The position numbers and the translations under genes were made by a program. From assembly GCF_000337035.1 (NCBI RefSeq), contig NZ_AOJL01000027.1:1-61387 (forward strand): a DNA stretch of 61,387 nucleotides. The letters run 5' to 3'. Under the pieces are notes generated by a model. It ran no database searches. It saw nothing but the letters and a program-made list of their open reading frames with translations, and was not told the DNA's origin. Below, piece by piece: positions 23,560 through 27,664 of the stretch. How positions within the stretch are numbered: the first letter of the stretch is position 1; the number at the start of each line of letters is the position of its first letter. The DNA is from Halorubrum coriense DSM 10284. Its GTDB lineage: Archaea > Halobacteriota > Halobacteria > Halobacteriales > Haloferacaceae.

Positions 23560-24678
23560 CTACTCCACGCGGTCGCGGGCCGCGGCGATCAGCATCGGGA
23601 GCATCACGGTCGCGTCGCCGTAGACGGAGGCGTTGCGCGCGTCCTTCTCCAGCTTCCCCCACGAGCGCGCCTCTTCGAGCGTCGCGCCGGAGAGCCCGCC
23701 GGTCGCCTCCGGGTCCATCGTGATCTGGACGGCGTAGTCGTACGCCCGCGGCGTGACGAGCATCGTCTGGAGCGTGAAGTTCTTCGGCACGCCGCCGCCG
23801 ACGAGCAGGCAGCCCGCGTCGTCGGCCTCGAACGCGAGGTCGGTCAGCTCGGTCATGTCCGCGAGGGCGTCGAGCGTGAAGTCCGCGGTCTGCGCGTACA
23901 TCCACGCCTGGAGCCCCAGCACGGAATCCTGAACCGCCGGGCAGTAGATCGGCACGTCGGACTCGTAGGCGGCGGCCGCGACGCCGGGCCCCTCGGGGAC
24001 GTCGTCGCGCTCGTTGACCTCAGCGTTCGCGCGGCCGAGCTCGCGCGTGAGGTCGGCGATCGAGACCGCGCCGCCGCCGTCCGCGTCGGGGTCGGCCTCC
24101 AAGGCGGGGAACACCTCCTCGCGGAGGTGGCCCTCGAACTCGGCGAAGTGTTCCTGCGGGAGGTAGACGTTGTAGATGCGGTCGACCCCCTCGTCGCGGA
24201 GCCCCTCGTCGTGTTCGCGGAGGCTCTTCTCGGGGTCGTGAGTGCGACCGTGGTGGTGTTTCCCGCCGATGGCCTCGATGGCGTCGTGGGTGAGGTTCGC
24301 CCCGGTCGTCACCAGCGCGTCGACGTAGCCGTCCCGGACGAGGTCGGCGACGATCCGGCGCATCCCGGCGGGCACCATCGCGCCCGCGAGCGAGAGGAAC
24401 ACGGTGCAGTCCTCGTTCGCGAACATCTCCGCGAGCACGTCGCCCGCCTCGTTGACGGACGCCGCCCCGATCCCCGCGTCGCCGTAGCCGTCGACGAGTT
24501 CGCTCACCGTCATTCCGGCGGTCGCGCGGGTGTGACCGACCGGGTCCTCGTGGAACTCCTCGCGGTGCGGCTCGTGGTCGGCGCGGTCGTCGCCGTCGGT
24601 TTCGTCGCGGTGGGCGTCGCCGTCGACGTCTCCGGCGTCCGAACCCTCATGTCGCGTCTCCTCGTCGCTGTCTGTCAT
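23560..24678 (-). CDS. dys: Deoxyhypusine synthase
   Basis: The enzyme transfers the aminobutyl group of spermidine (or agmatine-derived form in haloarchaea) to a lysine of aIF5A. In the 372-residue product the NAD-binding segment is TVFLSLAGAMVPAGMRR and TTGANLTHDAIEA, the acceptor-lysine segment is WGKLEKDARNASVYGD, and a typical VPIYCPAVQDSVLG is present. An acidic, probably disordered 50-residue N terminus precedes the fold; a later ATG (MTVSELVDGYG) could be an alternative start. It is the last gene of a four-gene run on the minus strand after the SAMP-like gene (39-base gap). Confidence 0.92.
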   Translation of the reverse strand: MTDSDEETRHEGSDAGDVDGDAHRDETDGDDRADHEPHREEFHEDPVGHTRATAGMTVSELVDGYGDAGIGAASVNEAGDVLAEMFANEDCTVFLSLAGAMVPAGMRRIVADLVRDGYVDALVTTGANLTHDAIEAIGGKHHHGRTHDPEKSLREHDEGLRDEGVDRIYNVYLPQEHFAEFEGHLREEVFPALEADPDADGGGAVSIADLTRELGRANAEVNERDDVPEGPGVAAAAYESDVPIYCPAVQDSVLGLQAWMYAQTADFTLDALADMTELTDLAFEADDAGCLLVGGGVPKNFTLQTMLVTPRAYDYAVQITMDPEATGGLSGATLEEARSWGKLEKDARNASVYGDATVMLPMLIAAARDRVE

Positions 24679-24717
24679 GGCTGCGGGTGGGGCCGGCGCG
24701 CGTTTGAAACGACCGAT

Positions 24718-25002
24718 CTATCGGTCGGCGAGACCGCCGCTCACCGGCGGGAACAGCGCCAGCTCGTCGCCCGCCTCCAGCGTCGCGTCGAGCCCGTCGT
24801 CGTGACGGACGCTCCGCCCGTTCCGGAGGACGTTGATGTGGTCCGCGACGGTCCCGTCCTCCAGCACGCGATCTCTGAGGTCGGGGTGCGCGTCCAGCAG
24901 CGCGTCGAGGGCGTCGCCGACCGTGTCGCCCGGCTCCGCGTCGACGGCCACCACACGGTCGCCCGCGATCTCCGCGAGGTCGGCGAACAGCTTCCACTCC
25001 AT
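24718..25002 (-). CDS. samp1: Ubiquitin-like small modifier (SAMP1/MoaD type) with residues after the diglycine
   Basis: The 94-residue beta-grasp protein begins MEWKLFADLAEIAGDR and ends ELALFPPVSGGLADR. Haloarchaeal SAMP1 normally ends exactly at ...PPVSGG, where the glycine is activated by UbaA and joined to target lysines or carries sulfur for molybdopterin. Here four residues, LADR, follow the diglycine, so the protein would need trimming, as eukaryotic ubiquitin precursors do. The ATG at 25002 gives the family N terminus. It follows the second TrkA_C gene by 23 bases. Confidence 0.85.
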   Translation of the reverse strand: MEWKLFADLAEIAGDRVVAVDAEPGDTVGDALDALLDAHPDLRDRVLEDGTVADHINVLRNGRSVRHDDGLDATLEAGDELALFPPVSGGLADR

Positions 25003-25025: not shown

Positions 25026-26402
25026 TCAAGAGCGTTGCGTCCCGTCGGGATTCGCGGCGGAAGCGCCGTCGCGGTCGGCGGTGTCGTCGGACGGGGGTTC
25101 ACCGGGGGCGTCGGCGTCGTTCGGTTCTGCGTCGTTCGGTTCGGCGTCGCGGTCGGCCGCGGGGGTCTCGCCGTCCGCGTCGGCCCAACCGTCCGCGTCG
25201 GCCCCACCGTCCGCTTCGGTCGGCGTCGCGGCCGCCGCCTCGAACCGGCGGATCGCCCCCGGGCCGCCGACGAGGTACACCAGATCGCCGGCGCCGAAGA
25301 CGTAATCGCGCGGCGGGATCGGCTGGACGGACCCCTCCGCGGGCCGGACCGCGGCGACGACGGCGTCGACCTCACCGACGGCGTCGAGCTTGCCGACCGT
25401 GCTCCCGTCGAGGGCGCTCCCGGCCGCGACGGTGACCGAGGCCATCGTCTCGTCCGCGTTCCGCAGCAGGGAGGCGAACTCCCGGTCCGCCCGCGGCTCG
25501 GCGGGGAGCGTCACGAGCCGGTAGCCGCCCTCGTCGGTCAGGCGTTCGGCGTCCGACTCGTCGAGCGCGACGGTGACGGCGTCGTCGGCGACGCCGCGGA
25601 GTTCGCCGGTCGTGACGCGCTTCGGCTCCGGGTCGTCGCGCCACAGTTGGACCGTGTCTCCGACGGTGGCGCTGTTCGGCGGGTCGGCCGAGACCGCGAT
25701 CGCCGCCGACCCGGGCGCGAGCGTCGGGCCGAGCCCGGCGGCGCGGGAGCCGACCGCGAAGTACTCGACGGTCCCGTCGGCGGCGAGGTCGACGTCGACG
25801 TAACCGACGCCGTACTCGTCTTTGAGCCGGGTGACGAGCCGCTCGCGGAGCGCCTCCGGGGAGAGCTTCCGCGGGAAGAGCAGCGTCTTCTCGGCGAGTT
25901 CGGCCTTCTTCTCGGGCGAGGCGGGATCGTAGGTGTCCACGTCGCCGATCTCGTCCGCGGGCGGGAGCGTCACCGCGGTGAAGCGCCCGAGGGCGCGCAC
26001 GACCCCGCTGAGTTCGCCTTCGAGCTGTTTGGCCCCGGAGAGCGCGAACACGTCGACCGCGAGCCGGTCGCCCGCGTACCGACCGACGGGCGCGGTCACC
26101 GCCGCGACGCCGAGCGAGACGAGGTTGAAGAAGACGCTCTCGGGCGCTAACAGCGCCGGGTTGTCCCCGATCGCGACCGACCCCAGCGAGGTCGTGTTGA
26201 GGTACAGCGCGACGACGGAGACGCCGAGCAGCGCGGTCACCCCCTCGGGTATCTCCGTGCGGAAGTACCAGCGGTAGGCCAGCGCCGCGCCCCCGGCCGC
26301 GAGGGCAACGACGACCGCGAAGGTGACGAGCGTGACCGCCGCCTGTCGCGGGCGGGCGAAGCCCACGTCGACGGCGGCGGCAGCAGCGACCGCGAGCGTC
26401 AC
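25026..26402 (-). CDS. Membrane protein with C-terminal TrkA_C domain, paralogue B
   Basis: The 458-residue protein starts with GTG inside the stop of paralogue A (GTGA overlap). About four hydrophobic segments (residues about 1-125) precede a cytoplasmic region with the motif LLFPRKLSPEALRERLVTRL, shared in form with paralogue A, then a TrkA_C domain (SVTVAAGSALDGSTVGKL to YVFGAGDLVYLVGG) and a disordered Asp/Ala-rich tail. TrkA_C domains bind small ligands that gate K+ transport. There is no TrkA_N (NAD-binding) half. The N-terminal GTG is preferred since longer frames add an Arg-rich segment. Confidence 0.75.
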   Translation of the reverse strand: MTLAVAAAAAVDVGFARPRQAAVTLVTFAVVVALAAGGAALAYRWYFRTEIPEGVTALLGVSVVALYLNTTSLGSVAIGDNPALLAPESVFFNLVSLGVAAVTAPVGRYAGDRLAVDVFALSGAKQLEGELSGVVRALGRFTAVTLPPADEIGDVDTYDPASPEKKAELAEKTLLFPRKLSPEALRERLVTRLKDEYGVGYVDVDLAADGTVEYFAVGSRAAGLGPTLAPGSAAIAVSADPPNSATVGDTVQLWRDDPEPKRVTTGELRGVADDAVTVALDESDAERLTDEGGYRLVTLPAEPRADREFASLLRNADETMASVTVAAGSALDGSTVGKLDAVGEVDAVVAAVRPAEGSVQPIPPRDYVFGAGDLVYLVGGPGAIRRFEAAAATPTEADGGADADGWADADGETPAADRDAEPNDAEPNDADAPGEPPSDDTADRDGASAANPDGTQRS

Positions 26403-27664
26403 GCGGCCACCTCCGCGAACCGGTCGAGCGCCTCGCCGCTCCCCACCACGAACAGGTCGTCGCCCGCCGACAGCGACTGCGAGCCGCCGGGCGCGAGCGT
26501 CCACGAGTCGTGCCGAGCCGCGAGGACCGCCACGCCGTACGCCTCGCGCACCTCGGCCTCGCCGATGCTGTGACCGTCCAGCGGTCCCCCGGCGACGACT
26601 GAGACCCGCCGGAACCGCTTGCCGGTCCGGCGCAGCAGGGCCGTGAGCTCGTACTCGCGGCGGGTTCCCCGTGACAGCACCAGGACGCGACCCCGGTCGG
26701 CGCGGAGGAGCGCCGTCGCCTCGGCGCGGTCGAGCGCGAGCGTCACCCGGCCCTCGCCGCCGGTCGTCGTGGGAGCGGTCGCCGCCGGGGGCGACGAGAC
26801 GGCCGCCTCCCCGCCGTCGGTTCGGAGGTCGTCCGGGTCGGCGTCGTCGCCCCCGGCGGGAGCGGGGGTCGACGCCGCGGCGGCTCCCGGCTCGGGCTTC
26901 CCGCTCGACCGGGCGGCGATCACGGGCCCTCGGGCGTCGAGGTCCGGGGTGATCACGCGGACGACGTCGCCGCGAGCGATCCCCGTCGGGACCAGCGCCG
27001 ACACCGACACCGCGCGCTTCCCCGCGGGCACCCGCTTCGAGAGCGCGCCGGTCGGCGGGGCGGCGGCCACGGTCGCGCGCGCCTGCTCGTCGATCCTGAC
27101 CGCCACGTCGGCCAGGTCGAGTTCCGCCCGGAGCCGCTCGGCGAACCGGCCTTCGAGTTCGGCGAGCGGGAGGTCGGCCGGGAACGTCCAGTCGCCGTCG
27201 AGGATCGCGCGGCGCGTGTCGGCCGGCAGCGGCGGGTACCCCTCCATGTCGTTCACCTCGCCGGTCACCGCGACGGAGACCCGGCCGCGGCCGCCGACGA
27301 GTTCGATCACGTCGGTCGAGAGCGTCCGGTCGCGCAGCTGTTTGAGCGAGATCCGCTTCGGGACGCTGGCGCCGAGCCGGTCGCCCTGCGCGTGGGCGTA
27401 CAGCGAGATCATCAACACCACGACGATCGCCGTGAGAATGGCCGGCGCGCGCTCCGACGACCGGATCGTCTCGTCGTTGAGCGCGAGGAGCCCCCCGTTG
27501 ACGCCGGCGATCGCGAGCGACAACACGACGACGCCGAGCCCGGGGATCGTCACGTCGGTGACGTACTTGAACACGAAGCCGAGGGTGCCGGCCACCAGCG
27601 CGGGGACGATTCCGGTGATGACACCGAGATAGATGCCGAAGACGATCTCGACGGGCAGCGACAT
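26399..27664 (-). CDS. Membrane protein with C-terminal TrkA_C domain, paralogue A
   Basis: The 421-residue protein has three to four hydrophobic segments at the N terminus (EIVFGIYLGVITGIVPALVAGT, GLGVVVLSLAIAGVNGG, AILTAIVVVLMISLYAHA), a middle domain containing WTFPADLPLAELEGRFAERL, a Pro/Ala/Asp-rich linker, and a TrkA_C domain (VSVVAGGPLDGHSIGE to LSAGDDLFVVGS). It is coupled to paralogue B by a 4-base overlap and divergent from a K+ channel gene 122 bases away. The shared middle motif suggests a tandem duplication. A role in potassium transport or its gating is inferred from the domain and neighbours. Confidence 0.75.
   Translation of the reverse strand: MSLPVEIVFGIYLGVITGIVPALVAGTLGFVFKYVTDVTIPGLGVVVLSLAIAGVNGGLLALNDETIRSSERAPAILTAIVVVLMISLYAHAQGDRLGASVPKRISLKQLRDRTLSTDVIELVGGRGRVSVAVTGEVNDMEGYPPLPADTRRAILDGDWTFPADLPLAELEGRFAERLRAELDLADVAVRIDEQARATVAAAPPTGALSKRVPAGKRAVSVSALVPTGIARGDVVRVITPDLDARGPVIAARSSGKPEPGAAAASTPAPAGGDDADPDDLRTDGGEAAVSSPPAATAPTTTGGEGRVTLALDRAEATALLRADRGRVLVLSRGTRREYELTALLRRTGKRFRRVSVVAGGPLDGHSIGEAEVREAYGVAVLAARHDSWTLAPGGSQSLSAGDDLFVVGSGEALDRFAEVAA

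Follow-up and report, generated by a model that had tools for sequence, protein, structure and literature searches.

The samp1 gene and its surroundings

The window analyzed here is a 61,387-nt stretch of DNA from Halorubrum coriense DSM 10284, and at 24718..25002 on the minus strand it carries the gene for the modifier SAMP1. The protein has 94 residues followed by a TAG stop (24718..24720, minus strand) and translates as MEWKLFADLAEI...DELALFPPVSGGLADR*; the C-terminal stretch after MEWKLFADLAEI can also be written LFPPVSGGLADR, and the end reads ...LFPPVSGG-LADR. Residues 1-90 matched the NCBIfam SAMP1 equivalog NF041918 at 132.3 bits (cut-off 60), which places the protein in this family, and a match to PF02597 (ThiS) was also obtained. 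The NF041918 match stops at residue 90, the second glycine of the activation/conjugation diglycine Gly89-Gly90 (24733..24738, minus strand), leaving the four-codon tail L-A-D-R (24721..24732, minus strand) outside the family model. The Haloferax SAMP1 chains in the PDB (3po0 and 4hro) finish at the equivalent GG. The four residues after the diglycine, as claimed in the first-pass annotation, were thus confirmed by both the translation and the end of the family match. The encoded chain goes on with LADR, so GG would be terminal only if the tail is removed, and the window SAMP1 has the encoded extension beyond the diglycine that characterizes a modifier precursor. Modifier precursors are universal for eukaryotic ubiquitin.

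The samp1 gene lies between K+-related genes and the gene for deoxyhypusine synthase, as previously described. The latter (23560..24678, minus strand; PF01916, E 5e-92; NF002630) starts 39 nt past the samp1 stop. Upstream of samp1 are a gene for a TrkA-C domain protein (25026..26504, minus strand; PF02080) and a second TrkA-C gene (26399-27664). The K+ gene linkage has no bearing on the tail, and the neighbors are relevant only in that the likely deoxyhypusine synthase promoter abuts it.

SAMP1 tails within Halorubrum

Alignment of SAMP1 homologues from relatives, a check proposed with the original observation, showed that the tail is common in the genus. An extension past GG was found in 34 of the 50 Halorubrum genomes with a readable samp1 end, and the other 16 stop at GG. 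A sequencing error near 24730 had been named as a possible refutation; with tails at the same place in 34/50 genomes this was not borne out, and a frameshift or assembly artefact was ruled out as the origin on the same grounds. The tails are four residues long in 29 of the tailed genomes, three in two and eight in three. Arg is the last residue in 28 of the 29 four-residue tails, usually in the pattern xxGR, and the variants include SVGR, SAGR, AADR, LADR, TVGR and AVGR.

A genus tree was built for 49 genomes from deoxyhypusine synthase and the SAMP1 core, with the tail columns omitted. The history of the tail on this tree takes four changes, either one gain and three losses or two gains and two losses, and three relatives inside the tailed clade have a SAMP1 ending in GG.

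SAMP1 tails across haloarchaea

In a class-wide scan for the SAMP1 C-terminus with a degenerate DNA pattern, 331 of 391 haloarchaeal genomes gave matches. A sense codon directly follows GG in 71 of these (21%), comprising 43 with a non-T base after GGN-GGN and 28 with TY as the next two bases, and tailed SAMP1 was found in about 20 genera. The tail is therefore not a peculiarity of the window copy alone. The tails across the class are unrelated to one another (for example S, AR, ER, EQ, GRR, SVERR, SGRR, SRIADR and ARPDTDA).

Over 79 tailed genes, the median tail length is four residues. Among 60 tailless genes, a further in-frame stop is reached a median of 80 codons past the real one, and in 93% more than 10 codons past it; simple loss of the stop would thus give far longer tails than those seen, which may point to selection against long ones. 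Pro was never the first tail residue among the 79 tailed genes, against 7 of 60 after the stops of tailless genes, but this deficit was set aside as evidence because the tails are not independent.

A few very long SAMP1 tails were encountered, of 113 residues (L115/L165) and 37 residues (L199). The 113-residue tail opens with SGRR, at which the tails of relatives end, and looks like the result of losing that stop or of a frameshift. Two genomes (G224 and G248) with SGRR/SGRQ tails also carry a second, diverged SAMP1-motif gene (L193 and L194), with tails SFSLRI and LFSLRI.

Sequence constraint on the Halorubrum tail

The end of samp1 runs into a perfect inverted repeat, CGACCGAT-AG-ATCGGTCG (24710..24727, minus strand), whose arm at 24720-24727 takes in the final codons of the tail together with the first base (T) of the TAG stop. 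The right arm continues into ATCGGTCGTTTCAAACG (24701..24717, minus strand), which likely serves the deoxyhypusine synthase gene as a promoter of the BRE/TATA type. This element is near-invariant in the 23 genomes whose samp1 stop abuts it, and the 17-mer has a single occurrence in the genome even when 2 mismatches are allowed. Its TTTCAAA precedes the deoxyhypusine synthase ATG by about 26 nt, which is where the TATA box of a leaderless haloarchaeal message is expected. The element is also present in tailless relatives, often as ACCGATCGGTCGTTTCAAAC and usually farther from the samp1 stop. The inverted repeat together with TTTCAAACG (24701-24727) is conserved genus-wide upstream of deoxyhypusine synthase and may be a regulated promoter.

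With a codon model whose tree and rates came from the SAMP1 core, we obtained an omega of 0.046 for the core and of 1.06, 0.38, 0.13 and 0.10 for tail codons 1 to 4 (0.37 for the pooled tail). The core is strongly constrained up to and including PPVSGG, with omega near 0 over its last 12 codons. Taken alone, the values for codons 3 and 4 would argue that the final two residues are constrained at the protein level; the base-change counts in the 23 abutting genomes indicate otherwise. The first two bases of tail codon 1 changed 10 and 6 times, and the codon is neutral, whereas the wobble base of codon 2 did not change at all. The conserved bases (C6, G7, C10, G11, the purine at 12 and TAG) all lie in the left repeat arm, so that conservation tracks the inverted repeat and not the codon phase. 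Protein-level conservation was accordingly rejected as the cause of xxGR, despite the omega of 0.37, although, at residues 3-4 (Gly-Arg), a weak constraint on the protein is hard to separate fully from one on the DNA.

The tail probably arose in an ancestor of core Halorubrum through loss of the stop codon behind GG, such that translation entered the adjacent deoxyhypusine synthase promoter at its upstream element, which would now provide the last tail codons and the stop. In the simplest history, an intergenic deletion would have taken out the original stop and brought GG directly up against this element. Some relatives would later have regained a spacer of 20-44 nt while retaining the tail; xVGR is kept in some relatives with the stop 20-44 nt from the promoter, and we counted this against our preferred explanation.

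JAMM1 in tailed and tailless genomes

The H. coriense genome encodes JAMM1, identified as the NF041370 desampylase equivalog (155.9 bits; cut-off 130) with the catalytic pattern E...HSHP...S..D intact, so a protease of the family expected to mature a modifier precursor is available in the same genome. Genes for UbaA and MoaE were both found there as well. JAMM1 was detected in 51 of 52 Halorubrum genomes, the lone exception being tailless and 79% complete. Its presence is uninformative as a test within the genus, in which tailed and tailless genomes both have it.

Outside Halorubrum, all 41 tailed genomes have JAMM1, against 64 of the 98 tailless genomes tested, with 34 lacking it (Fisher test, p 1.6e-6 when genomes are counted and 0.009 when genera are). 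No genome with a tailed SAMP1 and without JAMM1 was found, either among these 41 or among the Halorubrum genomes examined. The searches used limits of 1e-8 and 1e-4, and the scores were bimodal, all hits being at about 5e-18 or better with none between. The 34 tailless genomes without JAMM1 belong to 19 genera in six families, and in 18 of these genera every tested tailless genome lacks it. Ancestry was controlled for only by the count by genus and by contrasts within three mixed genera (g17, g53 and g71), in each of which a tailed genome has JAMM1 and the tested tailless genomes do not. The JAMM1 catalytic residues were read in about 25 genomes. In one of them (G201; L221, with HSHPAGPTEPTPRD) Thr replaces the motif Ser, and the SAMP1 tail of this genome is a single residue.

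As an independent check, the SAMP3-like paralogue was read in 40 genomes. Tails were present in 0 of 11 genuine genes from genomes without JAMM1 and in 12 of 27 from genomes with it (p 0.008), natural fusions to another domain being among the tailed ones. These counts exclude G195 (L271), a JAMM1-lacking genome whose apparent tail was a chance match in a frame that does not encode a SAMP, and G395 (L274), a match in a frame without a SAMP start. In Halorubrum, every readable copy (14 genomes and H. coriense itself) has a tail of 1-3 residues, mostly because its stop codon shares bases with the start codon of the following gene (gcATGA).

Proposed maturation of tailed SAMP1

The co-occurrence of tails with JAMM1, together with the cleavages known from Haloferax and Caldiarchaeum, makes removal of LADR by JAMM1 the best reading of these data. 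HvJAMM1 cuts a linear SAMP1-MoaE after the last glycine both in vivo and in vitro, requires the VSGG end, and by this cleavage restores molybdopterin synthase (PMC4443979). In Caldiarchaeum, the E1 does not act on pro-ubiquitin in its uncut form, which a JAMM protease matures (PMC5654768), and CsJAMM cleaves SAMP precursors (PMC6043591). We consider it likely that the tailed SAMP1 is a precursor matured by JAMM1, a zinc JAMM protease that would remove LADR by cutting after Gly90, and that the tail is a functionless by-product of stop loss. The mature SAMP1 would then be activated by UbaA, both for protein sampylation and, with MoaE, for sulfur transfer in molybdopterin synthase. The tail, probably without a function of its own, would persist as JAMM1 renders short tails harmless. 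We also consider it slightly more likely than not that, in haloarchaea, JAMM1 is an obligatory SAMP maturation protease in addition to a deconjugase, such that tails recur where it is kept and cannot persist where it is lost. The earlier suggestion that this copy would need processing is partly and indirectly supported, in that the tail is genuine, shared by relatives and found only in genomes with JAMM1, a homologue of which cuts after GG; the copy itself is not unusual, with 21% of haloarchaeal SAMP1 genes tailed.

The tail could instead be selected at the protein level, blocking activation by UbaA until JAMM1 cuts, so that processing sets the supply of SAMP1. The uniformity of the tails in the genus (29 of 34 with exactly four residues, 28 of these 29 ending in Arg), the omega of 0.10-0.13 at codons 3-4 and the refractoriness of uncleaved Caldiarchaeum pro-ubiquitin to its own E1 (PMC5654768) would all agree with this. 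We nevertheless regard it as unlikely, given that codon 1 is neutral, that the tail varies at first codon bases but not at the wobble base of codon 2, and that the constrained bases coincide with the inverted repeat. In addition, tails elsewhere differ in both sequence and length, and three relatives within the tailed clade have GG ends.

Two further explanations concern the fate of the tail. Removal might fall to a general carboxypeptidase or another protease, with JAMM1 co-occurring for other reasons such as a fuller use of sampylation; most tails are only a few residues long and would be within the reach of an exopeptidase. This seems rather improbable to us, in that no tail, on SAMP1 or on a SAMP3-like protein, was seen outside genomes with JAMM1, and the natural long C-terminal fusions of SAMP3-like proteins are unlikely to be matured by an exopeptidase. 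It is also conceivable that the tail is retained and the tailed SAMP1 is a non-conjugated protein, the work being done by a paralogue ending in GG, since cleavage of LADR in these organisms is argued by analogy. This is very doubtful, because the SAMP1 core is under such strong constraint as far as PPVSGG, the sole close paralogue in the genome (the SAMP3-like L002, on C15) itself ends in GGA, and JAMM1 is present in every tailed genome checked.

Comparison with known systems

The Halorubrum proteins resemble SAMP1 (HVO_2619) and HvJAMM1 of Haloferax volcanii in belonging to NF041918, in the PPVSGG end and in the NF041370 desampylase. Haloferax SAMP1, however, is encoded ending in GG and its linear fusion was artificial (PMC4443979), whereas the Halorubrum extension is natural. 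The pro-ubiquitin and SAMP precursors of Caldiarchaeum subterraneum likewise have residues after GG and are matured by JAMM proteases (CsRpn11 and CsJAMM), as would be the case in Halorubrum. Caldiarchaeum is of a different lineage and its pro-ubiquitin is encoded in an E1/E2/E3 operon, whereas Halorubrum samp1 adjoins deoxyhypusine synthase and its product would need an unlinked JAMM1. Natural Ubl-MoaE fusions (PMC4443979) and the Deinococcus MoaD-MoaE cut by DRJAMM (PMC8832034) are also ubiquitin-like sulfur carriers with a C-terminal extension that has to be released. Their extensions are whole domains, unlike the four residues in Halorubrum, which show no sign of function.

An archaeal modifier precursor, which the first-pass annotation held to be notable, had already been published for Caldiarchaeum (PMC5654768, PMC6043591). 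New, as far as the literature we searched shows, are the breadth of tails in haloarchaea, their apparent dependence on JAMM1 and the overlap with the neighbor's promoter, although haloarchaeal tails may have been mentioned earlier. If our reading is correct, JAMM1 takes on SAMP maturation in haloarchaea as a second, housekeeping function, and about one-fifth of haloarchaeal SAMP1 proteins would not be ready for conjugation as encoded, with consequences for mass-spectrometry searches, expression constructs and annotation. The tails would also constitute a natural experiment in the ways that modifier precursors can arise without adaptive value once the cutting enzyme exists.

A small gene next to the SAMP3-like paralogue

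In Halorubrum, the ATG of a small gene usually overlaps the TGA of the SAMP3-like gene (L002 and L240-L255). The product of the small gene (YRGISRRLA..HYLRNLGG) had no Pfam or NCBIfam match. In other haloarchaeal genera (L275, L278 and L279), the SAMP3-like protein is fused in frame, after GG, to this same domain.
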